DNA from: Oscillospiraceae bacterium | GTDB taxonomy: Bacteria > Bacillota > Clostridia > Oscillospirales > Ruminococcaceae | NCBI GenBank assembly: GCA_016281125.1 | Contig: JAEEIA010000007.1 | Coordinates: 1 to 33,141 of the forward strand | Direction: 5' to 3' | Length of the DNA stretch: 33,141 nucleotides | Shown: positions 1 to 24,305 of the stretch, one piece after another | How positions within the stretch are numbered: the first letter of the stretch is position 1 | Layout: every line of letters begins with the position of its first letter | The notes under the pieces: generated by a model | Database searches by the model: none | Told to the model about the DNA's origin: nothing | The model's input: the letters and a program-made list of their open reading frames with translations, nothing else | Translations under genes and position numbers: made by a program

Positions 1-2
1 AT

Positions 3-98
3 TGCAATATGCCAAAGCTTAAGTTTCGTAAATATGGTGTGTTGCATGACAATGTCAATGGGATGTATCGGAATGCTCTTGATATTTGGCTGGATTAA
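3..98 (+). CDS. C-terminal end of an unknown protein (partial)
   Basis: A frame open from the window edge ends at TAA 96-98 and gives a polar, globular-looking tail ending NALDIWLD. The frame starting at base 1 is also open (to 123) and would give a hydrophobic tail, so the choice between them is uncertain. I prefer the first because its codons look more natural (many purine-first codons). No family is recognisable from about 31 residues. Confidence 0.3.
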   Translation, partial: CNMPKLKFRKYGVLHDNVNGMYRNALDIWLD

Positions 99-171
99 AA
101 GCAACAGCGTTCGTTTTTTATAATAATGAAGGGATTGTCCATAAACACTGCTTATTGTAAGGAGGATATTC

Positions 172-582
172 ATGGTTAAGAAAATCATTGTCACGTTGAT
201 TTCATGCGCTATCGCTTCTAGTACAATTGGTGCAATTTCGGCCAGCGCTACTAGCAATCAATGGAATAATATATGGGGAGATGGATCGTGCTTTAATTTA
301 AGATATGAAACCTCTGTTGTCGGAGCTACATTCTATCTTAGAACCGAAATGACACGAGTCTCTGGAAATGCAGAATATGCTATGGATTCTTATGTGTATA
401 AGAAAAACGGCGGTTCATGGTATGCAGGAACACCCAGTGGCTACAGTCAAGGATGGTTGGATAATAATCACGCTAATAATGAAGTCACAAATAATTCTAT
501 AAAAGGCGAAGTATACTATTTTTCTAAATCAGCATGGGACGAATGCAATCTATTGACACATCAATACTGCTACTATAGTTAA
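172..582 (+). CDS. small secreted protein, bacteriocin-like candidate
   Basis: A 136-residue protein preceded by a good AAGGAGG site. The N-terminus is a classical Sec signal peptide: basic MVKK, a hydrophobic stretch to about residue 22, then a probable cleavage after ASA near residue 26. The mature part of about 110 residues is rich in Asn, Tyr, Trp and Gly, has three cysteines (C40, C125, C133) and ends in HQYCYYS. I do not recognise the family. A small secreted product followed by a hairpin and then an operon with an ABC exporter resembles Sec-exported bacteriocin loci such as lactococcin 972, where immunity and ABC genes follow the structural gene. No lactococcin 972 signature could be confirmed, so toxin function is inference. 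A TATAAT at 119-124 may be its -10 box; no good -35 is seen. Confidence 0.75.
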   Translation: MVKKIIVTLISCAIASSTIGAISASATSNQWNNIWGDGSCFNLRYETSVVGATFYLRTEMTRVSGNAEYAMDSYVYKKNGGSWYAGTPSGYSQGWLDNNHANNEVTNNSIKGEVYYFSKSAWDECNLLTHQYCYYS

Positions 583-600
583 AGCATGGTCTTTCGGAAT

Positions 601-630
601 GTGCTGCTATGGCTCAGATCATAGCAGCAC
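601..630 (+). terminator. hairpin between the small secreted gene and the ABC operon
   Basis: A perfect 11-bp inverted repeat (GTGCTGCTATG / CATAGCAGCAC) with an 8-base loop lies 18 bases after the first stop codon. The tail is only TGCTTTTATA, so it looks like a partial terminator or a 3' stabilising stem. It would let the secreted protein be made in excess over the downstream genes. Confidence 0.65.
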
Positions 631-662
631 TGCTTTTATATAAGATTATAAGGTAATGAACA

Positions 663-1733
663 ATGCGTAAAAGATATTATATTTGCCTGATGCTTCTGAA
701 TTGTTTATTTGCATATGGATGTTCAATGAATACTTCTCCATCAACTGATCTGTATTCTGTTCAATCGAATTTAGAGAATAATAACGGGCATGACTCTAAG
801 AAATATACGGCTCTTAAACCTGATTGGTCAAATTATGGCGAAGTTCAATGTAATGCCTCTATGGCTTTAGGAATTGGATCTGGAATTGATTCAAATGGAA
901 AACTGCTCCCCATAAAACAAGACACTAGCTCATGTAAAGATGGAAAAGTGTCTTTTTGTTTAAAGTCATTTTTTATTACAGATAACAATATCATTCTAGG
1001 TAATTACATTTTAACTCTATTTGTAACAATAAATGGAGAACCGGTTGATTTTTCGATAGACAATGAAAAAAGCAAAAATGGAATACTTCAAACAGTTGCA
1101 TCAATTGGAGAAAATACAGCTTTAACAATTGAACTTAATTATATCAACACAATTAAAGGACAAAATAGCATTTCCGTATATGGTGTGATTTATGTTCCAC
1201 AAATTGGGAATTACTATTGTTTATCAGATACAGACAGTTTCATTGCATCAAATAATCACCTTGGAAAAAACGCTATATATAGTGTCGATAATGATATTAC
1301 TGACATTATTAAAAGCAATGTTTTAGGAAAAGATGATTTAGAAATCAACGCAATAAAGAATAGTTCCACAGGATTGGTAGAGCAGAAATACATACAGTCA
1401 TGTTTTCAGAGCCCAAAATGTTTCGAAATCTCATCGCGTACACCATTAAATCTAACTTATATAAATTCATATAATGGAAATCCGCGTAATTTTTCAGGAT
1501 TCTGTATTGTTTTTCGAAATGGTGAGGCTATAAATGCATGGAACGATAGTACTACGTTATTGAAAATAGATATTTCAGAAAAAGATATTTCCTGGAAAAT
1601 CCCAATAAAGACCAATCTACCCCATAATGAATATTCATATATTGCGGCTGTTTTATTTGAACAGGCTGACCATTGTGATCTATCTATGCCGCAGATATAT
1701 ATGCAACGTGAATTATTTTATATAACAGAATGA
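663..1733 (+). CDS. lipoprotein of unknown function
   Basis: A 356-residue protein with a lipoprotein signal: MRKR, a hydrophobic stretch, and a lipobox ending in AYGC with the lipidated cysteine at residue 20. It should therefore be anchored on the outer face of the membrane. The rest shows no domain that I recognise; alternating hydrophobic and polar stretches suggest beta-structure. It opens the tight operon: its TGA at 1731-1733 overlaps the next ATG at 1730. A weak AAGG site precedes the start. Base composition is strikingly AT-rich compared with genes right of 11 kb, suggesting transfer. Being encoded with an ABC transporter, it could be a self-protection (immunity) or sensor lipoprotein, but that is inference from context only. 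Confidence 0.75.
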   Translation: MRKRYYICLMLLNCLFAYGCSMNTSPSTDLYSVQSNLENNNGHDSKKYTALKPDWSNYGEVQCNASMALGIGSGIDSNGKLLPIKQDTSSCKDGKVSFCLKSFFITDNNIILGNYILTLFVTINGEPVDFSIDNEKSKNGILQTVASIGENTALTIELNYINTIKGQNSISVYGVIYVPQIGNYYCLSDTDSFIASNNHLGKNAIYSVDNDITDIIKSNVLGKDDLEINAIKNSSTGLVEQKYIQSCFQSPKCFEISSRTPLNLTYINSYNGNPRNFSGFCIVFRNGEAINAWNDSTTLLKIDISEKDISWKIPIKTNLPHNEYSYIAAVLFEQADHCDLSMPQIYMQRELFYITE

Positions 1734-2866
1734 ATATGAAAAGAATTATTTTATATTGCGCTCTTTTTTTTATTGTTTTGGTGAGTGCTTTCATAATATC
1801 AGCAGCTGTCGGTATTCTATCATCAGAAACCCTTGATTCAAATAAAAATGCACTTGGCGGTACAGGCCAAATTAGATTACTGAATGCAGACAATACGCAG
1901 TTAAACGCACAGTATTTTTGTGATAATGAGAACCTGTATTACACTGAATACTCATCAACAGACGGTTTTGCTGTACTCTACGCCTATTCACTCAAAAATG
2001 GGCATACTGAATCGGTCTGTAAGCGTGTTGCATGTTCTCACAATACACCTGCGTGTCCACTGTATGATCTTGTCCGCTATAATAATCAACCTTTGTCCAC
2101 CGTAAACCAGCGTTATTGTGTCGCTGACAATCTGCTGTATTATGCTGTGCAAAAGGGCGAAAAATTACAGCTTTGGCAATGGGAACCGCTCTCAAATTGC
2201 CGCAAGCATATCACTGATTATCCTGCTTATCAGGAGATTCGGGATGAACGCGGTCTGACAACAAAGTTAGACGGTGTTCTCGATAAGGTGATGCGGCTAA
2301 ACAGGGCGTATTTTGCGGTTTGCTGCACGAATGTCATTTACATTTACGATAACAATTTTCGTGAAATCACGCAGATTCCGATTGGCTCGGCAAATTTACC
2401 GTTCTGTGCGGTCGGTGACTCGCTGATGTGGCAGGATTATTACGGCTGCACCTATTGCTATGATCTGAATGCCGAAACACTCCGCTCTGATATATTTCCA
2501 GATATGCCCTATGCGATGCGCGAATCATTCAGCTATGACGGTGTATATTATTTTGCAAGAGATAACCATATTTATGCCTACCGTCCTGACGCAGACTCAT
2601 GTACTGAACTCACACAGACAGATTCATCCGCGAAGGACACACCTGAACCGGCACTGTATGGATGCGGCGCACACCTATATTACAGAAGCGATGACATTAT
2701 AGTATGCAGGAATCTGGATACCGGCGAGGAGAAAGCACTTCCTGACTTGCCCCAAATTCCTGATATTGAAACGAAGGGCCTGATTCTTGTACGGAATTTC
2801 CGGAACAATGATACGGCACAACCATTTACACGATACGATCTGAACGGCAAGGCGGTGAATCCATGA
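1730..2866 (+). CDS. membrane-anchored repeat protein (propeller-like, DUF5050-like)
   Basis: 378 residues with one N-terminal transmembrane segment (about 6-30) and a large extracellular part. The extracellular part has recurring short motifs of the type NLYYTEYS, LLYYAVQ, VYYFARD and HLYYRSD, at roughly regular spacing, as in beta-propeller or DUF5050-like proteins of Clostridia. A Cys/His cluster (C97, C102, H104, C109) matches a small CxxxxCxHxxxxC motif that I recall from related clostridial surface proteins; it may bind metal or form a disulfide knob. The start overlaps the preceding stop and the end (2866) overlaps the next start (2863), so all are translationally coupled. The ligand is unknown. 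It may act as an extracytoplasmic partner of the ABC permeases downstream. Confidence 0.7.
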   Translation: MNMKRIILYCALFFIVLVSAFIISAAVGILSSETLDSNKNALGGTGQIRLLNADNTQLNAQYFCDNENLYYTEYSSTDGFAVLYAYSLKNGHTESVCKRVACSHNTPACPLYDLVRYNNQPLSTVNQRYCVADNLLYYAVQKGEKLQLWQWEPLSNCRKHITDYPAYQEIRDERGLTTKLDGVLDKVMRLNRAYFAVCCTNVIYIYDNNFREITQIPIGSANLPFCAVGDSLMWQDYYGCTYCYDLNAETLRSDIFPDMPYAMRESFSYDGVYYFARDNHIYAYRPDADSCTELTQTDSSAKDTPEPALYGCGAHLYYRSDDIIVCRNLDTGEEKALPDLPQIPDIETKGLILVRNFRNNDTAQPFTRYDLNGKAVNP

Positions 2867-4002
2867 AACACGAAATAAAAAAACTGTTGCTGTGCAGAGA
2901 ATTGCAGATTGTCCTGCTGCTTATGCTAATTGGTGCTGCTGTGGCCGCATATCGCGGGGTGGATTATGTTGTGCCAGAAATGGCGAAGCACTACCGGGAA
3001 AAAGCGGCGCAATATGCCGGAATTTCGCTGCTGGAGGCAAGGGAACAGCTTGCAGCAGAGTTAGATGCACTTAGCGGAGAAACGGAGGGTTCACCACGGT
3101 ATTATGAGCGATGTGTAGTCGAGGGACTATATTACAGCATTGACAGATACATGGAGCGTGACGAACAAAAAGCACAGCTATTGCAGAAGATTTTGTCCAT
3201 TTCAAACAGCACGGATTACCAGAGGCGGGATGCTGAACTTGCATACCGCCTCTATAACCGACCGATTCAGGATATGCTTTGTAACCGAATCGAGCTAAAT
3301 ATGGTTCTTTCTGAAACCGGAGGCAGCCGATTTTCAAATCACCGCACCTTACTCTTTTCTGGATTGTATCTTCTGCTTGTCTGCGTCCTGACGGCACCGC
3401 TTTTTTCGTGCGAATACGAAAACGGGATGTATCAGATATTATTTGCATCAAAGCGAGGATGCGCAGGACTGTTCCGGAGAAAGATCATTTGCGGTATGAT
3501 CACTGTTACTGTTTTTACAGTGCTTTTCACGGCAATGCTGTATGCAGTGCAATTATATCGGTATGGGTTGAGTGTCCAAATGCTTCATGCACCGGTGCAA
3601 TGTACGGATGCACTTGCCAAATGTCCGTATCTTCTGAATATTTGGCAGTATATTTTTCTGCACACAGGGATGCATTTGATTTGCGGCTGGTTGATGTTGG
3701 GCGTTTCCACAGTATTCTCATGTTTTAGCAAAAGATCACTGACAGTCTTTGCCGGAACCGCCGGAATCACGGCACTGATTCTTTTGCCGCCTCTTGCAGA
3801 TCAGCCCGCTGTTCAGCGTATTGCAAAGCAGCTCGGTCTGCTGCGGCTGCTGTTTCTCAATGACTATCTGGAACAGTACGATACAGTGAATGTGCTGGGC
3901 TATCCGGTCGCACAGATTACCTTATCTGTCGCCGGAACACTGGTACTGACAATACTGCTGATAACAGCGGCATACACGCTATACACAAGGGAAGGCAGGT
4001 GA
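2863..4002 (+). CDS. ABC-2 type transporter permease
   Basis: 379 residues. It has an N-terminal transmembrane helix (about 13-30), a roughly 120-residue extracytoplasmic domain and then five hydrophobic segments between about 165 and 373, the layout of ABC-2 (antibiotic/peptide exporter) permeases. The ATG overlaps the preceding stop by four bases and has a GGCGGTGA ribosome site. It is followed after six bases by the ATPase gene, then by a second permease, so a heterodimeric membrane part is likely. Substrate is unknown; export of, or immunity against, the small secreted protein at 172 is a reasonable guess. Confidence 0.85.
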   Translation: MKHEIKKLLLCRELQIVLLLMLIGAAVAAYRGVDYVVPEMAKHYREKAAQYAGISLLEAREQLAAELDALSGETEGSPRYYERCVVEGLYYSIDRYMERDEQKAQLLQKILSISNSTDYQRRDAELAYRLYNRPIQDMLCNRIELNMVLSETGGSRFSNHRTLLFSGLYLLLVCVLTAPLFSCEYENGMYQILFASKRGCAGLFRRKIICGMITVTVFTVLFTAMLYAVQLYRYGLSVQMLHAPVQCTDALAKCPYLLNIWQYIFLHTGMHLICGWLMLGVSTVFSCFSKRSLTVFAGTAGITALILLPPLADQPAVQRIAKQLGLLRLLFLNDYLEQYDTVNVLGYPVAQITLSVAGTLVLTILLITAAYTLYTREGR

Positions 4003-4008
4003 TGCATC

Positions 4009-4875
4009 ATGCTGATATTTGACGGACTGACCAAGTGCTACGGGAAATGCACCGCACTCGATCATGTTTCTTTTGAACTGGAGCACGGCATCTATGCACT
4101 GCTCGGTCCAAACGGTGCAGGAAAGAGTACAATGATGCATCTATTAGCCGGATTGCTGACGCCGACCGCCGGCAGCATTTCCTACAACGGCAAGCGCATT
4201 GAGGAACTTGATGCCGATTTCCGAAAGCAGATCGGCTATATGCCGCAGTATCCAGGGTTCTATCCGGATTTCACGGCATGGGAGCTGATGCGCTACATGG
4301 CGGATATGAAGGGGATTCCCCGTAAAGAAGCTGTTTCACAGTGTAACAATCTGCTGCGTGCAGTGAATCTCTATGAGAAACGCCGCGACCGCATTAAAAC
4401 CTTTTCCGGCGGAATGCGGCAGCGGCTCGGTCTGGCACAGGCTTTGCTCGGAACACCGGATATTTTGATTCTCGATGAACCGACTGCCGGACTGGATCCC
4501 AAAGAGCGCGTGCGATTCCGGAATCTGATTCGGAGACTTGCAGCGGAAAAGACGGTTATTTTCTGTACGCATATTGTTTCCGATATTGAAACCATTGCAA
4601 AAGAGGTGCTGTTGCTGCATCACGGAAAACTGCTGCGCAAGGCAACTGTGCCGCATTTGCTTGCGGAGATCAACGGCAAGGTCTGGGAGGTTACGGCGGA
4701 TGCCGATGAAATTGAGCATTTATTGGATCGGTATCCTCGTTCCAATCTGGTAAACAGCGGCGCGCAGACCGCCGTTCGCATCGTTCATGATAGCAAACCG
4801 CATCCACAGGCAGAGGCGCGAACCGGTGTGCTGGAGGATGTCTATCTGTATATGTTTGAGGAACAAAATCAATGA
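4009..4875 (+). CDS. ABC transporter ATP-binding protein
   Basis: 288 residues with a complete nucleotide-binding domain. Walker A is GPNGAGKST (33-41), the signature is FSGGMRQRLG, Walker B is ILILDEPTAGLD, and the switch histidine lies in FCTHIVSD. The C-terminal extension of about 80 residues is of the type seen in CcmA/BcrA-like peptide exporters. It is sandwiched between two ABC-2 permeases in one overlapping operon and should power them. The role (export, immunity or stress) is not determined by sequence. Confidence 0.95.
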   Translation: MLIFDGLTKCYGKCTALDHVSFELEHGIYALLGPNGAGKSTMMHLLAGLLTPTAGSISYNGKRIEELDADFRKQIGYMPQYPGFYPDFTAWELMRYMADMKGIPRKEAVSQCNNLLRAVNLYEKRRDRIKTFSGGMRQRLGLAQALLGTPDILILDEPTAGLDPKERVRFRNLIRRLAAEKTVIFCTHIVSDIETIAKEVLLLHHGKLLRKATVPHLLAEINGKVWEVTADADEIEHLLDRYPRSNLVNSGAQTAVRIVHDSKPHPQAEARTGVLEDVYLYMFEEQNQ

Positions 4876-5906
4876 AACAGCTTGCGATTTGTATGAAATA
4901 TGAGCTGCGGAAGCTGCTCATCAGTGATAAGGGATGGCTTATTATACTGGCCGCACTGCTGTTTCAGATCGTTCTTTGTCTGACCGCAAAGCCGCATTTA
5001 CAGCAATACAATTTCGATACCGAACTGTATCAGCAGACTGTTTCTGAATATACCGGTGCATACAGAGCAGAAACAGAGCGGCGTATTCAATCCTCAATGG
5101 ATGCCGCACAAGCGCGGATTTCGGCATACAGCCGGCGTCCGCAGAACGGCAGCGATAATTTACTTGAACGATCAAGACAGCTTGCCTTTGCACAGGAGGA
5201 TGCGGCGGTTTTGCAGGCGATTTCGCAAAAATATGCTGTATACAAGGATATTCAGGACTTGCATCCGGAACTTACTTATGATCTGGAACTAATAGATTAT
5301 CTGCGGCGATTTGGAGTGAACTGGTCATCGCTCATCTGTATTGCGCTGCTGATGCCAATGCTTATGCTGCGTGATTCCTCTTGTGGTATGGCGCAGATTC
5401 TGAATGCCAGCTATATCGGGATGCGAAAGATCTTACAGTCAAAGCTACTGACAGCCGCTTTTATCAGCATCGGAGTCACGCTACTTTGTACTCTGCTGGA
5501 ATTTACGATGTTCGCATTGCGATGGGATTTCGGAACACTGACCGTTCCATTACAAAGCATTACCGGTTATGAAACCTGCGGACTGCACTGTTCTGTCATG
5601 GGCGGACTGCTTATCGCAGAAGTCATCCGTCTTTTGACAATGTGGGCTGTGGCATGGGAAATCTGTCTGCTTGCAAAATTATTGCGGAGAGAGATTGCTA
5701 CGATTGCTGTATTTGCAATACTGATCGGAGTGGGGACGCTGTGCACATCGTTTTCCCTATATGGCTCATTATCAGGAATTGAGAACCTGAAACATCTCGG
5801 AGCAATAAATATATGTTCCATATCATTATTAATTATGATACGATGTATACTGTTTGAGCAGATAATGGTATCTCAAGCTAAAATTCCGATTCGTTCAGAA
5901 AAATGA
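4872..5906 (+). CDS. ABC-2 type transporter permease, second subunit
   Basis: 344 residues with the same architecture as the first permease: a TM helix at about 20-38, an extracytoplasmic region rich in Gln/Ala/Arg, and five hydrophobic segments from about residue 153 to the C-terminus. The start overlaps the ATPase stop (ATGA), showing translational coupling; a GAGGAAC site lies inside the ATPase gene. Last gene of the operon. No clear rho-independent terminator follows immediately. Confidence 0.85.
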   Translation: MKQLAICMKYELRKLLISDKGWLIILAALLFQIVLCLTAKPHLQQYNFDTELYQQTVSEYTGAYRAETERRIQSSMDAAQARISAYSRRPQNGSDNLLERSRQLAFAQEDAAVLQAISQKYAVYKDIQDLHPELTYDLELIDYLRRFGVNWSSLICIALLMPMLMLRDSSCGMAQILNASYIGMRKILQSKLLTAAFISIGVTLLCTLLEFTMFALRWDFGTLTVPLQSITGYETCGLHCSVMGGLLIAEVIRLLTMWAVAWEICLLAKLLRREIATIAVFAILIGVGTLCTSFSLYGSLSGIENLKHLGAINICSISLLIMIRCILFEQIMVSQAKIPIRSEK

Positions 5907-5943
5907 GAAACTCTATCATGAAAAAGAAAGATCAATATGATGC

Positions 5944-6156
5944 ACTGTAAGTGGTATAATAAAACATACAGAATCAGCCAATAAAAACATACAGAAATTC
6001 GCCACGAACTGTACAATGACCCGATCCATGGTATAATAGAAGCAAACCATGGAGGAGGCGGTACAGAGCATGAAAGGAATCAAAATGTATGCAAAAATCC
6101 AGGAACTGAAAGAGCTTGGAATTGCCAAAAAGCTTAATGCTGATGATCTGGCTTAA
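5944..6156 (+). pseudogene. IS21-like transposase (IstA) relic with its left-end repeats
   Basis: A 28-codon frame at 6070-6156 with a strong GGAGGAGG site gives KMYAKIQELKELGIAKK, which resembles the first HTH of IS21-family IstA transposases, then stops at TAA. Upstream, at about 5955-5995, a near-identical AAAACATACAGAA unit occurs twice, like the repeated transposase sites at IS21 ends. TATAAT boxes occur at about 5953 and 6031. The remainder of istA and the istB partner are absent, so this is a truncated remnant. The family assignment rests on a short match. Confidence 0.5.
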
Positions 6157-6252
6157 TAAATGCACTAACATTATTTTAAACGAATAGCTGAACAGATGCT
6201 GATTGTATCAAAAATAAAAGGTTCCATAGGATAACAATAATGATCATAATAT

Positions 6253-6304
6253 AGCTAATCCCCGACCACAAGGTTGAAACCAATCGTGTGGTTGGGGATT
6301 AGCT
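6253..6304. terminator. long hairpin, possible bidirectional terminator
   Basis: AGCTAATCCCCGACCACA pairs with TGTGGTTGGGGATTAGCT over 18 positions (one G-U pair), with a 16-base loop. It stands between the IS relic and the end of the relaxase gene. No strong T-run follows on either strand, so it may be a terminator, a remnant of an element end or a structured RNA. The rest of the 5907-6376 gap holds nothing else that I can identify. Confidence 0.5.
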
Positions 6305-6376
6305 TATTTCTGCGTATTGGAGTAGGTATTAATGCATCGAGAAAGAACAGCTAATTGTCAAATAGAGTTTAATTTT

Positions 6377-7786
6377 CTATCGCCTTTTTTCGTGTTCTTT
6401 TCTTTTACGTTCTTCAGCGACAAGCTGAGAAATATAATTTCCCTGCGAGATTTCGCGATATGTTTGCGCTATGTCTGAATATACCATATACATCTGCTGA
6501 CATTGCTTGAAGCGATCTTTCAGCGAAAAAATCTGTTTTTCGGTTTCACTCAATTTTGCCTGCAAACAGCTGAGATCAGCTTTTTCTGCAATGCTATTGT
6601 TCAGTATACTTTGCCGGCTGACTGTCAGCCGCAAGTGTTCTATTTCAGTCAAATTCATCTTGTCTGACAATGAAAAGTATGTTTCTGCCTGTTGAATCAG
6701 TGAGGTCAACCGATCATGCTCCGCCGTCAGCAAGTTCAGTTCCTGACGCGCTTGCTCATAATCGGTTTTTACCGCTTCGATCTTTCCCTCCACCTCACCG
6801 ATAGAATGAATATGATCGCGGTTGATGATCCTGAGCTGTGCTGAAAGCCGATGCACATCCAAATCATTTTGCAGAGAATATGGTGCAGTCCAGTCACGCC
6901 GGCGCTGCACTTTTCTTTTTTCTGCTGCAAGCTGAATAACTTGTCCGATGATGACTTCATAGCATTCGCGCAGGGGTGACGGTTCATCAGTCAACGCCGC
7001 GCCGCTGTCTGCATCATTCCATAGGATTTTGGATGCAAGGCTTTCCGCCGTATATTCTTCCCCCAGTGTTTTCGTGCGGATAAAACGCTGCTGTCCCGGC
7101 GCTTTGAGGGAGATATACTTGCCCTTTTTGACATCATATCCACGCAGTTCCAGTTCATAAAGCAGTTCATCCATATTCTGGACCGAACCGATCAAGCTGT
7201 CAATTTCTGTTTGCAGCTTCTGCTTCCATGATGTACCGCGCCGCCGGTTCTCCCATTCATAATGACCGATTGCTTTCCCTTTTCCTCTGCTTTTGTCATA
7301 CGGCTGGATACCGAAAGCAAGGCACACTCTGTCTGAATATTCTTTTACATGGTTCAGCGTTTTCTGATTGTCATTCAGCTTCCTGCCTGTCATCGTATAA
7401 GTGTTTACAAGAATATGGCTGTGGATATGTCTACGGTCAGTATGTGTTGCTATTACGACCTGACAATCATCACCGAAGGTCTTGCGTGCAAATGCTTTTG
7501 CGATACGATGTGCCAGTTCCGGTGAGATGTTATCCTTCGGATCAAATGACTGGATATAGTGAATCGCTTTCACGCTGCCCTTGCCTTCCAACGGCGGCGG
7601 TGTGTCAAACCGTTCCGTCGAATAGCACTCATAAACAGACTTCATTTCCAGATAAGCGTCCCGTGCGGAAGTCATACAGTTCAATGAGGATGTATAAAGT
7701 AATCCCTCAGTCTTATCCGGGTTCAGAATATAGCTCAGCGTTTTGTTGACGGTAGATCGGACAGGAATTGATTTAACATACGGCAT
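6377..7786 (-). CDS. relaxase, MOBP / MobA-VirD2 type
   Basis: 469 residues. The N-terminal relaxase domain shows a likely catalytic tyrosine Y19 (LSYILNP) and the metal-binding histidine cluster H115...H120-I-H122-S-H124 followed by ILVNTY, the three-histidine motif of the MobA/VirD2 (PF03432) family. A middle region (about 180-260) looks like the conserved post-catalytic part of Firmicutes relaxases. The C-terminus from about 330 is a long charged coiled coil. It nicks DNA at oriT and pilots the strand during conjugative transfer. The start is supported by AGGAGG about 12 bases upstream, inside the 3' end of mobC, with which it overlaps by 52 bases. No coupling protein or type IV secretion gene is in the window, so this part is mobilisable rather than self-transmissible as far as visible. 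Confidence 0.92.
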   Translation of the reverse strand: MPYVKSIPVRSTVNKTLSYILNPDKTEGLLYTSSLNCMTSARDAYLEMKSVYECYSTERFDTPPPLEGKGSVKAIHYIQSFDPKDNISPELAHRIAKAFARKTFGDDCQVVIATHTDRRHIHSHILVNTYTMTGRKLNDNQKTLNHVKEYSDRVCLAFGIQPYDKSRGKGKAIGHYEWENRRRGTSWKQKLQTEIDSLIGSVQNMDELLYELELRGYDVKKGKYISLKAPGQQRFIRTKTLGEEYTAESLASKILWNDADSGAALTDEPSPLRECYEVIIGQVIQLAAEKRKVQRRRDWTAPYSLQNDLDVHRLSAQLRIINRDHIHSIGEVEGKIEAVKTDYEQARQELNLLTAEHDRLTSLIQQAETYFSLSDKMNLTEIEHLRLTVSRQSILNNSIAEKADLSCLQAKLSETEKQIFSLKDRFKQCQQMYMVYSDIAQTYREISQGNYISQLVAEERKRKEHEKRR

Positions 7787-8073
7787 ACCTCTGTGAGACC
7801 TCCTTTCAGAATCTCAATATCCTCCGCATAGATGCTGTGCGTTTCATTTGCTTTTCTCGCCACCTGATTTATGTTGTTGGAAATCGTGCGCATTGCATTG
7901 ACCAGCGGTGCTGCCGCCTGCATATCATAATAGGTCAGCTGCCCATTGACAGCGATCTTCTTGATATAGGTTCCGATTTTCAGATTGGCTTCAGCGGCGC
8001 GGCGTTCCACCTCTGCCCATTCGTTCAGGTCAAATACGACCTCCTTGCGTTTCACCTGCTTATACTTTCTCAT
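7735..8073 (-). CDS. mobC: MobC-like relaxosome accessory protein
   Basis: 112 residues from the ATG at 8073, which sits eight bases after GGAGG; the upstream ATG at 8088 overlaps that site and is less likely. The small, basic N-terminus followed by FDLNEWAEVERRAAEANL and the NNINQVARKAN segment is typical of MobC (PF05713) relaxosome proteins, which bind oriT as ribbon-helix-helix-like dimers and help the relaxase open the strands. It is placed directly after the candidate oriT and before the relaxase, the usual order. Confidence 0.88.
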   Translation of the reverse strand: MRKYKQVKRKEVVFDLNEWAEVERRAAEANLKIGTYIKKIAVNGQLTYYDMQAAAPLVNAMRTISNNINQVARKANETHSIYAEDIEILKGGLTEVCRMLNQFLSDLPSTKR

Positions 8074-8179
8074 ACAGTTTTCCTCCATTCTGTTTTCCTT
8101 TTCTTCGTTGCGGCAACTTATATTTGGAGGGAGATTGGTTTAGGGCTCAGGTTCCCTAAACTGGATTTTTGCAGCGGTA

Positions 8180-8310
8180 CAGTCTGCGAAAACCGTAATA
8201 TCCGAAAGTATACGATACTTTCTGTGGCTTGCTATTCCGTCAAACTCCAAAGTATACGGATACTGCAAAAAACACGGTTTTCGCCCGATTGGGCGTACCC
8301 CTCCAAATCC
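8180..8310. other. candidate oriT / relaxosome repeat region
   Basis: The region upstream of mobC is dense in symmetry. GCGAAAACCGT (8186-8196) is inverted at 8274-8284. GAAAGTAT-ACG-ATACTTTC (8204-8222) is a hairpin, and a related AGTAT-ACGG-ATACT follows at 8251-8264. CGCCC-GATT-GGGCG (8282-8295) is followed by TACCCCTCC, the layout of an inverted repeat next to a nic region in MOBP-type oriTs. Position and symmetry support oriT; the exact nick site is not established. Confidence 0.55.
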
Positions 8311-8514
8311 AACGCCTGCGGCGGCGATCCGCAGTTGTCATAATCCCCTCCGAAAACTACCTCACAAAGCCCCTGATTTTTTCTGTATCCTGCCAGATTC
8401 GGAATCAATCTATATTTTGCACGATTCACAATACCCTGATTTGTATAAAACAGAGAATCTTTTGGAATATAGCCGGTTTATCGAAAAAAAGTCCTGAGTA
8501 TTGAGGTAAGAAGT

Positions 8515-8607
8515 GAAAGGGGCAATCAGCCGGCAGCCGGATCTCGCCAATCCGCGCTGCACTTCGCCTAAAACCGGAAGCCCCTTTCGCATTAAATACG
8601 AAAGGGG
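8515..8607 (+). promoter_or_regulatory. leader with two mutually exclusive hairpins over the CHC2 gene start
   Basis: CCCCTTTCG (8581-8589) can pair with CGAAAGGGG (8599-8607), covering the purine-rich ribosome site and the first base of the GTG start. The same left arm, as GCCCCTTTC (8580-8588), can instead pair with GAAAGGGGC at 8515-8523, which would free the start region. This looks like an attenuation or translational switch; function is inferred from pairing only. Confidence 0.4.
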
Positions 8608-9227
8608 TGAGAGCGCTGAACAATATCTATGAGGAGCTGCGGAGCAAAATCCTCATGCCGGATGCTGCACGGTTTTACGGTCTGGAGATCAACAGAGCAG
8701 GTTTCGCCGCCTGTCCGTTTCATCCTGACAAAACATCGAGTCTGAAAATCTATGAGGATCACTATTATTGTTTCGGCTGCGGCGCGCACGGTGATGTAAC
8801 GGATTTCACAGCCAGGTTGTTCAGCATCTCTCAATACGATGCCGCTCGGAAGCTGAACGCGGATTTCGGATTAGGGCTTGCAAAACAGGCACCGTCCGTT
8901 CCGGTAAAGCAAACAGTCAGCCCTGAAGTCGCCTATCGGAACTGGCTGCACAGCGCAGAGCGTATCCTTAATGATTATCTGAATATGCTGTGCCGGTGGC
9001 AAAGGTATTATGCCCCGAAAACGCCCGGTGAAGAACAGCACCCGTATTTTGTGGAGAGTCTCACAAAAATGGAACAGTACCGATACCTTTATGAACAGAT
9101 CAGGTTCGGAACTGATGCCGAGAAGCGGAGGCTGTATCTGACAGAGCATGAAACACTGAGCAAGCTCGCAGAGCGTATGAAGCAGCTGACCGCCGCCAAA
9201 TCAACTGTGAAGCGCAAAGCGATCTGA
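8607..9227 (+). CDS. CHC2 zinc-finger (DnaG-type) protein of the mobile element
   Basis: 206 residues with a DnaG-like zinc-binding domain: C36-P-F-H39 and C55-F-G-C58 spaced as in CHC2 fingers, followed by GAHGDVTDF. Only the finger is present; there is no TOPRIM catalytic domain, and the C-terminal 100 residues are an uncharacterised charged helix region. Such single-finger proteins are common in Tn916/ICE-type elements and are thought to help replication of the transferred strand. The start is uncertain: the GTG at 8607 has its AAAGGGG site directly abutting, so initiation could instead be at CTG 8616. Confidence 0.8.
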   Translation: MRALNNIYEELRSKILMPDAARFYGLEINRAGFAACPFHPDKTSSLKIYEDHYYCFGCGAHGDVTDFTARLFSISQYDAARKLNADFGLGLAKQAPSVPVKQTVSPEVAYRNWLHSAERILNDYLNMLCRWQRYYAPKTPGEEQHPYFVESLTKMEQYRYLYEQIRFGTDAEKRRLYLTEHETLSKLAERMKQLTAAKSTVKRKAI

Positions 9228-9242
9228 ACGGAGGAATGAAAC

Positions 9243-9650
9243 ATGAGTCATAACAAGCAGACAGCAGAGTTTCTCTATCTGCTCTGCTGTTATCTGAAAG
9301 TAAATCCCGGCTGCCTGATTGCTGTCAGCGATTTTGACAAGGAGACCGGAAGCAAGCTGCCGCTCGGCTATTATGATGATGTGTACTGTTATGTCAGACC
9401 GGAAATGGTGATCCCGATGTTTCGGGCGGTTGCATTTCCGGACTATGAAGCAGATATGCTGCAAATCCTGCGGGAACTGTTCGCAGCGGACTTCATCAAG
9501 GTACACTGGATTCTGAGCGGTGAGGTTCGCTACCGTCCGCAGAAGCGTATCGGCAGCACCAGAAAACGCTACATCACATTTTACCGCAGGAAGCTGGAAC
9601 CGTATATGGACAAGCATTTCAAAAAGGAGGCAGAGGATGAAAAAGACTGA
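9243..9650 (+). CDS. uncharacterised mobile-element protein
   Basis: 135 residues with a perfect GGAGGAATGAAAC leader and ATG start, 15 bases after the CHC2 gene. Composition is that of a soluble globular protein with a basic C-terminal tail (RRKLEPYMDKHFKKEAE). No recognisable domain. It overlaps the following HU-like gene by 14 bases, which places it in the same operon as the CHC2 and HU-like genes and suggests a role in DNA handling of the element, but the function is unknown. Confidence 0.75.
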   Translation: MSHNKQTAEFLYLLCCYLKVNPGCLIAVSDFDKETGSKLPLGYYDDVYCYVRPEMVIPMFRAVAFPDYEADMLQILRELFAADFIKVHWILSGEVRYRPQKRIGSTRKRYITFYRRKLEPYMDKHFKKEAEDEKD

Positions 9651-9897
9651 ATTTGTGAAGGAGGTCGCAAAACAGAACCATCTGAAACAGCCCCAAGCTT
9701 ATCAAGCAATAATTGCTGTAATGGATACTCTGCGCCTCGTATTGTCACAAGGGGATTCCGTAGAAATTGGCGGATTTGGCAAGTTTCAAACTACAACAGA
9801 AATACAAGGAGAGCATGTTCCGGTATTTCATGCCTATTTCGTTTTGAAGCGAGTCGTCAATACTGAGACGACACTCATGGAAACGGATAATAAGTGA
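9637..9897 (+). CDS. HU/IHF-family DNA-binding protein
   Basis: 86 residues starting MKKTEFVKEVAKQ, with the HU pattern: two N-terminal helices, then SVEIGGFGKFQ (the conserved G-F-G-F-type turn) and a beta-arm region. The usual RNPQTG arm tip is replaced by a diverged segment (EIQGEHVPVFHAYFVLK), so DNA bending at specific element sites, rather than general nucleoid packing, is plausible. The ATG lies six bases after AAAAAGGAGG, within the end of the preceding gene. Confidence 0.85.
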   Translation: MKKTEFVKEVAKQNHLKQPQAYQAIIAVMDTLRLVLSQGDSVEIGGFGKFQTTTEIQGEHVPVFHAYFVLKRVVNTETTLMETDNK

Positions 9898-9971
9898 TAT
9901 GTGCAGATTAAAAACGGTATATCTCAAGCACTTAGGACATAGGATGTTACAAATGAAGGGGGCAGAATAAT

Positions 9972-10226
9972 TTGGATATTGGGCAACAGGCAACAATACA
10001 TAATGTTGAAGAACCGCAAACACTACAACAGAGAATTGCGGCAGTTCATTGCCAGCTTATCATCGATAAGCTCAATAGCATGAATCTTTCCAAAGAGAAA
10101 AGGAAGGAGATTATGGATAGGGTGATAAATGCTCTTAGAATCAAAGCTCAGCAGCCACAATTTGCTCAAACAGCTTCACAAAAGACTGTTTCGACATCCT
10201 TGTACGATTCATCTCCCAGTTTTTAA
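9972..10226 (+). CDS. small unknown protein, convergent with the HTH gene
   Basis: 84 residues from a TTG start preceded by GAAGGGGGCAG. The predicted product is hydrophilic and helical (LSKEKRKEIMDRVINALRIK) and ends with a Ser-rich tail. Its last 86 bases overlap the 3' end of the oppositely directed HTH gene, which is unusual, so the frame may be shorter in reality or spurious. No family recognised. Confidence 0.4.
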   Translation: MDIGQQATIHNVEEPQTLQQRIAAVHCQLIIDKLNSMNLSKEKRKEIMDRVINALRIKAQQPQFAQTASQKTVSTSLYDSSPSF

Positions 10227-10770
10227 TAGTATCCACAGGAATGTGATAATGCTCTGCAAATGCGTTTCGTGTCATGTGCATTTCCTGGCGAAGTGCTCTA
10301 ACTTGCCGACCTTGATCGTTCAACAAAAAGAGATTGTAGTCATCCAGTAGCTTCGTAATATCAATGTGATAATATTCAGCGATCTTTTGAAGCTTGTCCA
10401 GCGGATAAGCATCTACTGCGTTATCTTCGTAAGCAGAATATGTGCTTCTGTCAATCTGCATGACAGAGGCACATTCTTTTTGCATCAGATCATGCTTTAG
10501 CCGATACCATTTCAATTTCTCACCAACCGTTTGCAAACTGCTAACATCAGGGTACGCCAAAAGGAAATCACAGTTGTTATCATCACATTTTCTTTTATTG
10601 ATATTTGCTACATGAGTATAGAGTAATTTATGCGAAACCTCGCCATTTTCGTAGTTATAAAGCAAAATCATGAAATCCGAAAGCTTCTGTTTCAGTCGGT
10701 AACATTTATTTGACCATTCATTGCTGTATACATTAGCTTTGAATAAGATTTTCAATGCACCGTGAAGCAT
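10141..10770 (-). CDS. XRE-like regulator with two HTH domains, at the element edge
   Basis: About 210 residues. A first Cro/CI-type HTH (EKLKWYRLKHDLMQKECASVM...RSTYSAYEDN) lies near the middle. A second (VRALRQEMHMTRNAFAEHY...TIKNWEMNR) lies at the C-terminus; both recognition helices are intact. The N-terminal 60 residues are unlike known HTH proteins. The frame stays open across the sigK junction: the ATG at 10770 and the TTG at 10779 lie in host sigK sequence and have no ribosome site, and the next ATG is at 10671. So the integrated copy may be translated from a host-derived start or from 10671. Likely the regulator of the element's maintenance or excision genes. Confidence 0.7.
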   Translation of the reverse strand: MLHGALKILFKANVYSNEWSNKCYRLKQKLSDFMILLYNYENGEVSHKLLYTHVANINKRKCDDNNCDFLLAYPDVSSLQTVGEKLKWYRLKHDLMQKECASVMQIDRSTYSAYEDNAVDAYPLDKLQKIAEYYHIDITKLLDDYNLFLLNDQGRQVRALRQEMHMTRNAFAEHYHIPVDTIKNWEMNRTRMSKQSFVKLFEQIVAAEL

Positions 10771-11080
10771 ATGTCGCAAAGCGCGCGCCCTTTTCCGCCT
10801 TAAACGAGGACACCGCCTTGATCAGCCCGAGCGTCCCGATGGAGATGAGCTCATCCTGTTCCCGGTCGGGCGCGTAAAACTTTTTGGTCATGTGCGCGAC
10901 CAGCCGCAGATTGTGCGAGATCAGCTTCTGCCGCGCAGCGTCGTCGCCTTCCGCAAGCCGTTTCAGGCATTCCTCCTCCTCGGCTCTGGTCAGCGCCGGC
11001 GGAAAGGCCGCCGCATGATCGACATGCAGCAGAAAAAAGGTCATCTGCCCGAACAGTCCCGATAAAAATGCAAGCATCAT
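10733..11080 (-). CDS. sigK: RNA polymerase sigma-K, N-terminal half, interrupted by the element
   Basis: The product matches the sporulation mother-cell sigma-K. It has a short hydrophobic pro-sequence (1-25), then FPPALTRAEEEECLKRL, HNLRLVAHMTKKFYA (region 2.1), DELISIGTLGLIKAV and GARFATYASRCIEN (region 2.3-2.4). After N111 the conserved ENEIL continuation is replaced by LIQS and a stop from element DNA. Regions 3 and 4 (about 120 residues) are missing and not found elsewhere in the window. The last codons before the break use AT-rich codons unlike the preceding ones, so the crossover may lie slightly inside the conserved segment. The ATG has a GGCGGTGAT site and a SigE-like promoter upstream. 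A functional factor would require excision of the element. Confidence 0.88.
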   Translation of the reverse strand: MMLAFLSGLFGQMTFFLLHVDHAAAFPPALTRAEEEECLKRLAEGDDAARQKLISHNLRLVAHMTKKFYAPDREQDELISIGTLGLIKAVSSFKAEKGARFATYASRCIENLIQS

Positions 11081-11098
11081 ATCACCGCCTTTTTCTGT

Positions 11099-11127
11099 AT
11101 TATATGCGTCCGGATGCTGATATATGA
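11099..11127 (-). promoter_or_regulatory. SigE-type promoter of sigK
   Basis: On the minus strand TCATATA is followed after 14 bases by CATATAAT, close to the sigma-E consensus (KMATATT, 14-15 bases, CATACAMT). It stands 18 bases upstream of the sigK ATG, as expected for a mother-cell gene under sigma-E. Confidence 0.6.
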
Positions 11128-11146
11128 AAAAAATCAGAATCTGCTC

Positions 11147-11175
11147 TTGACAAATCGGAAATCATCTGCTATAAT
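11147..11175 (+). promoter_or_regulatory. vegetative promoter of the SAM-riboswitch operon
   Basis: TTGACA (11147-11152) and TATAAT (11170-11175), both perfect, spaced by 17 bases. Transcription would begin just before the riboswitch aptamer. Confidence 0.9.
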
Positions 11176-11185
11176 GTAATACAGC

Positions 11186-11285
11186 CTTATCATGAGCGGC
11201 GGAGGAACCAGGTCCTGTGATGCCGCGGCAACCGCGCAGAAGCGTATGGTGCCAAATCCTGCGGCGCAAGCCGAAAGATGAGGAA
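11186..11285 (+). promoter_or_regulatory. SAM-I riboswitch (S box)
   Basis: The aptamer core is recognisable. CTTATCATGAGCGGCGGAGG opens P1/P2, followed by CTGTGATGCCGCGGCAACC (P2/J2-3/P3), GGTGCCAAATCCTGC (P3) and GCCGAAAGATGAGG closing towards P1. It binds S-adenosylmethionine and controls the intrinsic terminator that follows, switching off the metK operon when SAM is high. Confidence 0.95.
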
Positions 11286-11300
11286 CGAATGCAACGATAG

Positions 11301-11332
11301 GCGGCATACGTTCTGTATGCCGCTTTCTTTTT
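11301..11332 (+). terminator. riboswitch expression-platform terminator
   Basis: GCGGCATAC - GTTCT - GTATGCCGC followed by TTTCTTTTT, a strong rho-independent terminator directly after the SAM aptamer and 24 bases before the first coding start. Confidence 0.92.
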
Positions 11333-11356
11333 GCAGCAGAAAGGAATTATCAAAAC

Positions 11357-12250
11357 ATGGAAACACAAATCCGCACACCGCGACAGCATCCTTTTTTTGA
11401 CAGACACACCGTTCTCGGCACGATTGTACTGATTATCCTTGCGTATATCTTTGTGACAGTTCCCACGACAATCGTTTTCCTGATCGCCGGCTTTATTCTG
11501 CCGGGCTTCCATCCCAATGATTACCTCTTTGTCGGCATCGCAGGCATGGCATGTCTTGCACTGCTGATCTACAAGCTCTGGTTCCGGCCGGAATACCGCG
11601 GCATCCTGTTCCGGGGCTTCGCCAGAACGCTGAAGCTCTGTCCGGTGATTCTGCCTTACTGGCTGCTGATCTGTCTGCCCGAATTCCTCGACGGCAACTT
11701 CCCAAAGACCTTCAATCTGACGGTCTTTTCGACTGCGCTGATCGCCGGTTTTTCGGAGGAGGTCATCTTCCGAGGCTTCCCGCTCTCCTATCTGAAACGG
11801 CAGCTCCGTTCCGAAAAGCAGATTCCGCTGATTGTCACCGTCACCGGCGTCTTCTTCGGCATGTTCCATCTCACCAATATGATCCTCGGCGCTTCGCTCA
11901 GCGCAAGCCTCGTACAGGCTGTCAGCGCAAGCTGTATCGGCATCTTCTTCGGCGCGCTTCTGATGCGCGGCGGCAATCTGCTTGTCCCGATTCTGCTGCA
12001 TTCGGCGCATGACGTTCTGATGCTTTCCTTCCAGAATGCCGATGAGGTCAGCGCGATCCTCTCGGATGAGGCAACGCCCTCTGATATCCTCATGATGCTG
12101 CCATGCATCGCACTGGCCGTGTTCGGATTCTTCCTGATCCGGAAATCCATGCGCCGCGAAATCTGCGGTATGTGGGCAGAAACATGGTCACAATCCACCG
12201 AAAACCAGCCTGAAATCCCGGCTGAACCGAAAAACACTACGGAGGTTTAA
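11357..12250 (+). CDS. CPBP family intramembrane metalloprotease
   Basis: 297 residues, with about seven hydrophobic segments. The catalytic motifs of the CPBP/ABI (CAAX-protease and bacteriocin-processing) family are all present: E134-E135-x-x-x-R139 in [14 protein letters not shown]171 and the third motif HSAHD (215-219). It should be an active membrane protease; substrates in this family include immunity and signalling proteins, here unknown. An AAAGGA site precedes the ATG. It lies between the SAM riboswitch and metK with a two-base gap to metK, so it is under SAM control, an unexpected partner for SAM synthesis. The C-terminal 50 residues are a hydrophilic tail. Confidence 0.9.
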
Positions 12251-12251
12251 T

Positions 12252-13421
<1,170 letters not shown>

Positions 13422-13430
13422 GCACATACA

Positions 13431-13472
13431 AAAAAGCCCGAAGGCGATCAACTGACCGCGTTCGGGCTTTTT
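13431..13472. terminator. bidirectional terminator between metK and the SGNH gene
   Basis: AAAAAGCCCGAA (13431-13442) pairs with TTCGGGCTTTTT (13461-13472), giving U-tracts on both strands, between the convergent metK and SGNH hydrolase genes. Confidence 0.9.
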
Positions 13473-13507
13473 CGGTTTTCATCTTCCTGATGCGGATTCC
13501 GCCGCGT

Positions 13508-14587
13508 TCACTGCCCGCAGCAGATGCCGAAGCCGAGAACATACACATTCTCCTCCTCCGGCTCCAGCAGCAGCGTATGCTCTGCCGGTTCTGCCGCAGA
13601 AACCGCCGTCACGAATTTGGCATTGCCCCAGCCGTAGATCGAATTGCTGTGAATCAGCGGCTGCTTCATCGGCTCGCCGTCCACGCTGATCCGGCAGGAG
13701 CCGAATTCCGGCAGGCGGTGCGTTTCGTAGTAAACCTGCAATACGCGGCAGCGAACCGTCAGCTTCAGCGGGCCGCCTGCCCTGCACAGCTTCCATGCGG
13801 AACGGAAATAGACCTGATACGGCCGCGGAACAAGCTCACAGGCCGTTTCGACGCCCGCGGTGTCCGTTGCCGCCTCCAGAAATGCAAGATCCGTAAACGG
13901 TGCGTCAAGCCAGGGCGCAGGCAGCGGAACAGGCGCGCTGTCCGGCAGCAGCTTTGCCGTTTCCAGCAGATGCAGCACCATCTCCGCGAGCAAACGGTGG
14001 CCGTCCGGGTTCGGATGGCTCTCCTCGTCGCCGTAATCCGCCCAGGTCAGATCTCCGCGCTCCATCGCCGGTGCGATGGCCCGGTTCAGGCTGATCTGCG
14101 GCAGACCGTAATGCTCCGCAACCGGCACCATGAACGATTCGCAGGAATACCCCTGCATACTGCGCAGCATCAGCAGACAGACAACCGGCGGCTCCGGTGC
14201 GGTCAGCAGCTTGCGCAGCATACTTTCAAAGGAGATGACGCTCGGCCGGAGCGTCGTTTCGTTGATTGCAAATTCCAGAAACACAATGTCCGGCTTTTTT
14301 GCGAGAATAAATTCATCCGAAAGCAGATTGCCCTGCATTGTCCCCATGCCGGCCTCTGCCAGAATGCAGCATTCCGCATCATATCCCTGTGCGCAGAGTG
14401 CGTTTGTGACCAGCTCCGGATAGGCGCCGCGGCGAATCTCCAGGTTTGCATAGCCCTGTGTCACCGAGCCGCCCATAAAGCCGACCGTCAGATGCTTTTT
14501 TTCCAGAAGTGTCCGCCACTGGATCCCGCTCCCGGTCGAGCTGAGTGCCTCGGATGCAAGCTGCTTGAAAAGCGATTCCGAAATCAT
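13508..14587 (-). CDS. SGNH/GDSL-type hydrolase
   Basis: 359 residues from the ATG at 14587, chosen because GAGGGGA lies six bases upstream; a longer GTG start at 14602 is possible. SGNH blocks are present: the nucleophile block FMGGSVTQG (Ser41), the asparagine block FAINE (106-110) and the catalytic Asp/His block DEESHPN (187-193). The C-terminal 150 residues look like a beta-sandwich accessory domain. It has no signal peptide, so it is cytoplasmic or exported by another route. Likely an esterase/acetylesterase acting on carbohydrate or lipid esters. It starts 29 bases after the LysR gene on the same strand, so the two may be co-transcribed and the LysR factor may regulate it. Confidence 0.85.
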   Translation of the reverse strand: MISESLFKQLASEALSSTGSGIQWRTLLEKKHLTVGFMGGSVTQGYANLEIRRGAYPELVTNALCAQGYDAECCILAEAGMGTMQGNLLSDEFILAKKPDIVFLEFAINETTLRPSVISFESMLRKLLTAPEPPVVCLLMLRSMQGYSCESFMVPVAEHYGLPQISLNRAIAPAMERGDLTWADYGDEESHPNPDGHRLLAEMVLHLLETAKLLPDSAPVPLPAPWLDAPFTDLAFLEAATDTAGVETACELVPRPYQVYFRSAWKLCRAGGPLKLTVRCRVLQVYYETHRLPEFGSCRISVDGEPMKQPLIHSNSIYGWGNAKFVTAVSAAEPAEHTLLLEPEEENVYVLGFGICCGQ

Positions 14588-14616
14588 AGACTGTCCCCTC
14601 ACCCCTCAAATCCTGA

Positions 14617-24028: not shown

Positions 24029-24103
24029 GGTGGGTAGTGGGATTCGAACCCACGATCTTCGGATCCACAATCCGACGCTTTAACCAGCTAAGCCATACCC
24101 ACC
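24029..24103 (-). tRNA. tRNA-His (GTG)
   Basis: 75 bases including the extra 5' G-1 typical of tRNA-His pairing with C73. Acceptor GTGGGTA/TACCCAC, T-arm GTGGGTTCGAATCCCAC, anticodon loop TTGTGGA. CCA is not encoded. Third gene of a Gly-Arg-His transcript. Confidence 0.97.
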
Positions 24104-24137
24104 ATATTCAATTTTTACTGCACATGCAGCGCAGTGA

Positions 24138-24211
24138 CGCGCCTTAAAGGATTCGAACCTTTGACTTACTGCTTAGAAGGCAGTTACTCTATCCAGCTGA
24201 GTTAAAGGCGC
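24138..24211 (-). tRNA. tRNA-Arg (TCT)
   Basis: 74 bases; acceptor GCGCCTT/AAGGCGC, anticodon stem ACTGC/GCAGT with loop CTTCTAA (anticodon TCT), T-arm AAAGGTTCGAATCCTTT. CCA is not encoded. Confidence 0.96.
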
Positions 24212-24234
24212 AGACGTCACAGTAATGTGACAAA

Positions 24235-24305
<71 letters not shown>

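Follow-up and report, generated by a model that had tools for sequence, protein, structure and literature searches.

The window, a 33,141-nucleotide stretch of Oscillospiraceae DNA, carries only the front of a sigK gene. The minus-strand ORF at 10733..11080 reads MMLAFLSG...TYASRCIEN and then ends with four element codons, LIQS, and a stop, 10748 being the last base assignable to sigK. Among developmental DNA rearrangements the skin element is a textbook case, with a few species known to carry it. The locus raises the question of whether sigK is broken here for good or divided by an element that can leave it again, and of what kind such an element would be. A preliminary description had read the insert as a skin-like element; our analysis supports this reading, which was largely right, and adds to it conjugation genes, a wide spread and a recombinase frame split by the crossover.

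The two halves of sigK and their joining

The genome (G000; 3.9 Mb in 98 contigs, contamination estimate 3.88%) carries the window side of the element on contig C83. The SigK N-half matched model TIGR02846 with 129 bits over profile positions 3–113 of 227, and codon 111 is followed by foreign DNA, which confirms the claimed interruption in region 2. Regions 3–4 are indeed absent from the window, and both a sigK 3' half and a large serine recombinase (LSR), which the preliminary description had expected past its left edge, were found on contig C15. There, a Sigma70_r4 profile gave an orphan match (C15:18174-18326) and a Recombinase profile matched the LSR (C15:16852-17265), whose domains are Resolvase, Recombinase and zinc-ribbon (Table 1).

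Both sigK halves are present in this one genome, and removing the element at the short core shared by the junctions restores the sigK frame exactly. Joining in silico gave a 233-aa SigK, in frame, with 273 bits against NF004471 (cut-off 252) and 266 bits against TIGR02846, below the cut-off of 298.65. Across the whole element family the crossover core is AA. The joined flanks aligned to the intact locus of the congener G337 (L028) without a break at the junction (82.6% over 3,721 bp, query 595-4268), in one piece across the junction to a second congener, G374 (L031; 73.4% over 2,268 bp), and in two pieces to G295, the first of which spans the junction. An unbroken sigK-like frame was detected in five of the six other genomes of the genus sample, G188 being without a match. 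The split sigK with its matching halves is not a product of chance. The B. subtilis junction, which the preliminary description places in the CIENE segment, agrees with the AATGA core given in PMC10745906; here the crossover falls between AAT and GA in the ENE codons.

A second SigK was not found among the 53 region-2 sigma matches of the genome, in which only SigE and SigG were identified by model and not all 53 were typed. SigE and SigG each pass one of their two NCBIfam models, Spo0A and SpoIIID are present, and a SpoIIGA-like gene scored 91.8 bits, below its cut-off of 209.55. The promoter candidate upstream of sigK, read by eye, is sigma-E-like. The LSR promoter, also read by eye, is sigma-A-like (TTGACT, 17 bp, TATAAT) and does not look sporulation-specific.

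Several other features were noted in the flanks. A SAM riboswitch (window 11184-11284, plus strand; RF00162, 86.2 bits) occupies the opposite strand immediately upstream of the sigK 5' half and precedes an ORF for a CPBP-type membrane protein and ORF 12252-13421, which we take to encode S-adenosylmethionine synthetase. Behind the sigK 3' half on C15, an FMN riboswitch (L024 19196-19316, minus strand; RF00050, 112.6 bits) adjoins an ECF-transporter-like gene. Three consecutive tRNA genes occupy window 24029-24305 on the minus strand.

Table 1 Features of the split sigK locus and of the element. Positions without a contig or locus name refer to the window.
Feature	Position	Strand	Remarks
Element DNA, window side	1..10747		Crossover to contig end; based on empty-site alignment to congeners and gene content
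ABC exporter ATPase	4009..4875	plus	PF00005, 117 bits
MobA/VirD2-like relaxase	6377..7786	minus	PF03432, 112.6 bits
MobC/NikA-like mobilisation protein	7735..8088	minus	
CHC2 zinc-finger (DnaG-type) protein	8607..9227	plus	PF01807, 51.8 bits
HU-like DNA-binding protein	9520..9897	plus	PF00216, 40.9 bits; domain in C-terminal two thirds of ORF
HTH part	10144..10746	minus	Stop codon 10141-10143; two XRE-type HTH domains after a beta-rich stretch
Attachment-site arm TGTATAC	10726..10732	minus	Mirror counterpart on C15, ahead of the LSR end: ATGTATAC
Crossover core AAT	10748..10750	minus	Common to both junctions
sigK 5' half	10748..11080	minus	Codons 1-111, pro-SigK N-terminus to ...CIEN
sigK promoter candidate	11099..11127	minus	TCATATA, 14 bp, CATATAAT; read by eye
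Lamassu LmuA/LmuC/LmuB; dGTPase with PDC-S28 helicase	L024 (C15) 6474-9987 and 10403-14335		
Portal-protein fragment, short	L024 (C15) 14549-14899	minus	phrog_12, 59.6 bits; near LSR
Large serine recombinase (LSR), 565 aa	C15:16300-17997		Beside sigK 3' half
SigK C-half (regions 3-4)	C15:17988-18356		Directly behind LSR, overlaps LSR stop
Group II intron with reverse transcriptase	L111 15873-18177 (C70)		Inside long LtrC-like frame
Tyrosine integrase, then agr-like regulator pair	L112 3618-6936 (C70)		

Gene content and extent of the element

On the window side, the element encodes mobilisation proteins and an ABC exporter, of which the membrane ORFs 2863-4002 and 4872-5906 are, by position, likely the permeases. 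Contig C15 begins with what we take to be an IS110-type ORF and encodes VirD4 (CD1115 family, 513 bits), DUF3801, a dGTPase-like protein, a PDC-S28 helicase and the LSR, along with two ORFs that sit at the usual VirB2 and VirB6 places and have no family match. Its defence set was assigned to ABC-3C by Pfam and to Lamassu (LmuA/LmuC/LmuB) by PADLOC. The only prophage-like content is one portal-protein fragment, perhaps a prophage remnant, the rest being genes for mobilisation, conjugation and defence. With a relaxase, a conjugation coupling protein and Lamassu-type defence, the element is not chiefly a prophage.

The element is not covered by any single contig. C15 ends inside a conjugation operon and contig C70 opens with PrgI and VirB4 (CD1110 family, 986 bits), followed by a topoisomerase, so C70 is most likely located between C83 and C15. 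This placement is an inference from contig ends without overlap, as no overlap of at least 10 bases was detected between the left end of the window and C15, C70 or C92. The relaxase is thus on C83, VirD4 and the LSR on C15, and VirB4 and PrgI on C70; 28.7 kb of the element is in hand, and it would measure about 57.4 kb if C70 belongs. This conjugation set resembles those of Tn1549/CTn-type conjugative elements, with which it shares a CD1110-family VirB4, a CD1115-family VirD4, PrgI and the topoisomerase. Unlike in those, it stands here beside a sigK-directed LSR, subject to the inferred link of C70. Contig C92 was considered as the missing middle and ruled out, given that it has its own VirD4-, PrgI- and VirB4-like set (by eye). 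C92 (L113, 1-18409) holds a second conjugation gene set in the same genome, unlinked to sigK.

The tyrosine integrase on C70, which has homologues with 61–66% identity in other genomes (L426-L432), one of them with a similar regulator-like stretch behind, allows a different view of this structure: a conjugative element with its own integrase may be nested in a smaller, merely mobilisable, LSR-driven sigK element. The elements of relatives are mostly 8–27 kb and share with this one only the LSR and the HTH part, besides weak ABC and VirD4 matches, in keeping with nesting. However, the sole relaxase identified is on the window side, so a nested conjugation part would be without a relaxase of its own. 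We would put nesting slightly below an even chance. It concerns the structure of the element, and the reading of the locus as a sigK-intervening element moved by its LSR stays intact.

Elements splitting sigK are common in Clostridia

LSR matches (E value of 1e-30 or better) were detected in 110 of 396 sampled genomes of the family, and we examined the 30 best LSR loci, including the one described here. A SigK C-half (from about residue 109) was located directly behind the LSR in 28. The exceptions were L084 and L086, the latter (in G051) being inverted, its LSR standing next to the 5' half. Eleven other genomes had the same architecture with both sigK halves in single contigs, the element measuring about 7.9 to 59 kb.

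A second survey compared an alignment of the HTH part (A2) with one genome per species (84,980 species) and retrieved 54 loci. In 48, the same strand carries upstream a sigK 5' half that breaks off at residue 110 or 111; one (L216) has the sigK 3' half on the other strand, an inverted element, and four (L214, L223, L227, L240) had no sigK half, three of these with the match within 90 bases of the start of the stretch. Many of the genomes are MAGs, and the taxa include Ruminococcus, Massilioclostridium coli, Merdimmobilis hominis, Candidatus Soleaferrea massiliensis, Ructibacterium gallinarum, Tyzzerella, Sellimonas, Mediterraneibacter, Clostridium fessum, Faecalibacterium, Dysosmobacter, Pelosinus, Sporomusaceae and Holdemania. 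The LSR search was run on 30 of the 54 loci and matched in 26, 23 of them with both sigK junctions. LSR elements that split sigK are thus a common feature of Clostridia, and their range extends to Negativicutes and Holdemania. This distribution is new: no report of sigK elements in the families concerned was found in the open literature, subscription papers being mostly outside that search.

A FastTree phylogeny of 76 LSR rows placed all HTH-bearing rows, including our own, in one group of 58 (SH-like support 98), within which our LSR sits on a long branch, so that its position there is uncertain. Because rows lacking the HTH part are dispersed through this group, the HTH part looks ancestral and lost several times; one LSR row from a sigK site (V261) fell outside. 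Holdemania G409 and Lachnospiraceae G411 have almost the same LSR. Joint inheritance of LSR and sigK was considered and not upheld, the distances in 51 element sets being only weakly correlated (Mantel r 0.20, with none of 2,000 permutations as high; Spearman 0.05, p 0.052). The elements are passed from one lineage to another.

Two deviating elements were seen. In a Negativicutes MAG (G406; L222 with L341), an element with LSR and HTH part interrupts not sigK but a gene for gamma-glutamyl cyclotransferase (GGACT, 66 bits), and its LSR is closest to a viral-contig LSR located at sigK; this is a switch of target site. In the inverted element of G402 (L216, L344), the attP core is the reverse complement of that in other elements, as a core that determines the insertion direction would predict. 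A palindromic AT core as an explanation of both orientations was dropped, the core being AA and reversed in G402, the one inverted element with an HTH part (by eye).

The recombinase frame continues across attP in most in-silico circles

When the element ends are joined into an in-silico circle, the HTH part of the window is in frame with the LSR of C15. The attP of the circle is symmetrical at 14 of 26 positions about centre 47.5, the best of 12 centres. The LSR stop was scored against the crossover in 34 loci with a readable LSR ORF and a sigK 3' half; G275, G347 and G364 were left out, as that junction was not in hand. The stop lies at or past the crossover in 32 loci, being the TGA of sigK's own AATGA in 27 and located 7 to 41 nt past the crossover in five (7 in our element), and lies upstream in the remaining two (G115, G259).

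In a first set of 30 elements with both junctions, the LSR ORF of the circle read through for at least 100 codons in 20 (177–234 codons in 16 and 102–122 in 4) and stopped sooner in the other 10. Counting the openness of the frame alone, at least 100 codons were open in the LSR frame in 21 of the 30 (G115 added), versus 1 and 2 for the other two frames. The second set was found through the HTH part and so tests the frame and not how frequent the HTH part is; 22 of its 23 elements read through in the LSR frame for 196–224 codons, the exception being G400, with a stop 7 nt before the crossover. Were one in three frames to agree by chance, the binomial probability would be 5e-10, assuming an independence that is incomplete (G115 and G400 share an identical LSR, and the two surveys have some species in common). 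The inverted G402 element and that of G406 at its other site read through for 203 and 204 codons, respectively. In silico, attP lies inside one long LSR-HTH reading frame in most elements. With the LSR frame continuous across attP into the HTH part, integration splits both sigK and the LSR-HTH frame, and excision should rejoin both.

The joined forms remain predictions, both the circle and the LSR-HTH fusion protein. Our searches revealed neither a circle nor a joined sigK, and there was no contiguous LSR-HTH frame among the HTH matches listed, where the 21 above 180 bits lie in open frames of 178–249 aa. Searching viral contigs with the HTH alignment found no relative. Among the best 80 of 112 viral-contig LSR loci, none has a contiguous LSR-HTH frame, and three (L280, L331, L325) have a similar HTH ORF after the LSR, as a separate ORF. 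The 18 and 38 viral-contig stretches with attP-like patterns showed no LSR, HTH or sigK match in the vicinity.

The HTH part is conserved up to the crossover region

Sixteen read-through parts aligned as one family, with a W...YILYR...YAPLYIHSF stretch and two HTH domains, and the conserved residues extend to near the crossover. AlphaFold, given our HTH part and 19 relatives, predicted strands at 15-43 followed by helices (mean pLDDT 87.5, pTM 0.67). A fold search with the HTH part returned ordinary HTH domains only, none at an E value of 0.001 or better. In the first 70 codons, dN/dS was 0.08–0.49 in 13 of 14 pairs and 0.69 in the remaining pair, of nearly identical sequences. These values show purifying selection on the HTH part.

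Start codons leave room for a separate protein. A stop is located within 5 codons upstream of the HTH part, inside sigK, in 24 of the 30 first-set elements. An ATG before codon 60 occurs in 11 of the 20 read-through first-set elements and is lacking in nine, with none in 208 codons in G117; every one of the 23 second-set elements has such an ATG, and our own HTH part has one 8 codons upstream, inside sigK. Judging from these codons, separate translation of the HTH part is possible in most elements, so that the case for a fusion is built on frame retention and sequence conservation and not on the absence of a start.

The LSR and the HTH part could accordingly be two separate genes that share a frame at attP by chance, with a fusion that has no role or is not made. 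Possible starts of their own, the separate ORFs in the three viral contigs and the repeated loss of the HTH part in the LSR tree are all compatible with this. Yet the frame persists in 20 of 30 and 22 of 23 elements, some of whose LSRs are only 36–43% identical to our own, the conservation reaches near the crossover, and low dN/dS precedes the first ATG (codon 97, 78 and 111, respectively) in G005, G010 and L251. We regard two unconnected genes as unlikely, without dismissing them, and prefer an LSR-HTH frame that is divided by integration.

A model for excision and for the split frame

In the mechanism that we propose, the LSR of C15 would recombine both junctions, release the element as a circle and rebuild sigK in frame, probably with a recombination directionality factor (RDF); none was identified, and no systematic search for one was made. 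In the integrated state, the LSR would be short, ending at the crossover, and the HTH part, cut off from it, would be made alone, if at all, from its own start. Excision would add the HTH part to the LSR, the circle encoding one predicted LSR-HTH fusion. We infer that the short form serves excision and assign the fused form to the free element, in which it may, as a guess, repress the LSR gene or steer attP x attB integration in a new host; that the fusion is expressed is likewise an inference. By analogy with C. difficile, the labour might be divided between an LSR under a sigma-A promoter and an RDF expected under sigma-E and SpoIIID, from which mother-cell timing of excision is inferred.

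The element may instead have broken sigK for good, with sporulation no longer completed and no regulated excision. Our genome has the only split sigK among seven in the genus sample, so the insertion may be young, the LSR promoter is sigma-A-like, and excision itself is unobserved. Against a permanent break, both halves are intact and join exactly in frame, the same codon is split in many lineages with the LSR kept, and the other sporulation regulators are retained. We consider such a loss improbable. An assembly artefact, in which C83 and C15 do not adjoin or one of them is a contaminant, is barely credible: despite the lack of a spanning contig or overlapping contig ends and the contamination estimate given above, G337 and G374 each match the joined flanks in a single alignment, and 11 other genomes show the architecture within single contigs.

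In our judgment, then, it is probable that a genome with other sporulation regulators houses a skin-type sigK-intervening element, excision and the split frame being included in this joint best explanation. For the wider proposal, the case stands evenly poised: an LSR family, mostly sigK-directed, would carry attP within its own frame, so that recombination reciprocally splits and restores sigK and LSR-HTH as a state-dependent latch, and would have spread horizontally through Clostridia, Negativicutes and Holdemania.

Comparison with known systems

Pro-SigK undergoes processing, and SigK here has an N-terminal pro-region like that of B. subtilis, unlike SigK of C. difficile, which is without a pro-sequence. 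Skin of B. subtilis (skinBs) is described as prophage-like and 48 kb long, with the LSR adjoining the 5' half in the opposite direction (PMC10745906); its RDF, Skr, overlaps spoIVCA (PMC6957869). As in skinBs with SpoIVCA and Skr, an LSR element splits sigK here with AATGA at the junction; it differs in having the LSR beside the 3' half, conjugation genes and an LSR frame that spans attP. For C. difficile, PMC5025042 places the LSR (CD1231) of skinCd immediately upstream of the sigK 3' half with a sigma-A promoter, puts the RDF (CD1234) under sigma-E and SpoIIID, which confines excision to the mother cell, and states that insertion position and orientation differ from those of skinBs. The LSR directly before the sigK 3' half and its sigma-A-like promoter resemble skinCd. 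The locus described here combines the B. subtilis core with the C. difficile orientation.

Split integrase genes occur in archaeal SSV viruses. The nearest idea to the split frame is the integration-dependent immunity of mycobacteriophage BPs, in which attP lies inside the repressor gene and integration shortens the product (PMC4557955). Here, too, attP lies, in silico, inside an element ORF that integration shortens, but the ORF is that of the recombinase, which is cut from an HTH domain, and not of a repressor. Sporulation genes are also split by phage MMB025 in sigK of Alicyclobacillus (PMC13141910), by gin in gerE and by yin in yabG (PMC5595907, PMC10747680); these differ in host, gene or content, and the accessible parts of these articles report no LSR-HTH frame. 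An LSR frame spanning attP into an HTH protein was not found in the open literature (subscription papers mostly outside), and the part of PMC11913394, on Roseburia, that was available has no mention of a sigK element or of an LSR-HTH frame.

With a large mobile family of sigK-splitting elements, DNA excision may often act as a gate for late sporulation in Clostridia of gut and soil, where sigK can easily be mistaken for absent or broken. How a serine recombinase senses whether its element is integrated or free is the question of directionality, and a C-terminus that would be rewritten by the enzyme's own reaction makes it directly testable, the many attP, LSR and sigK sets found here being ready material for directionality assays.
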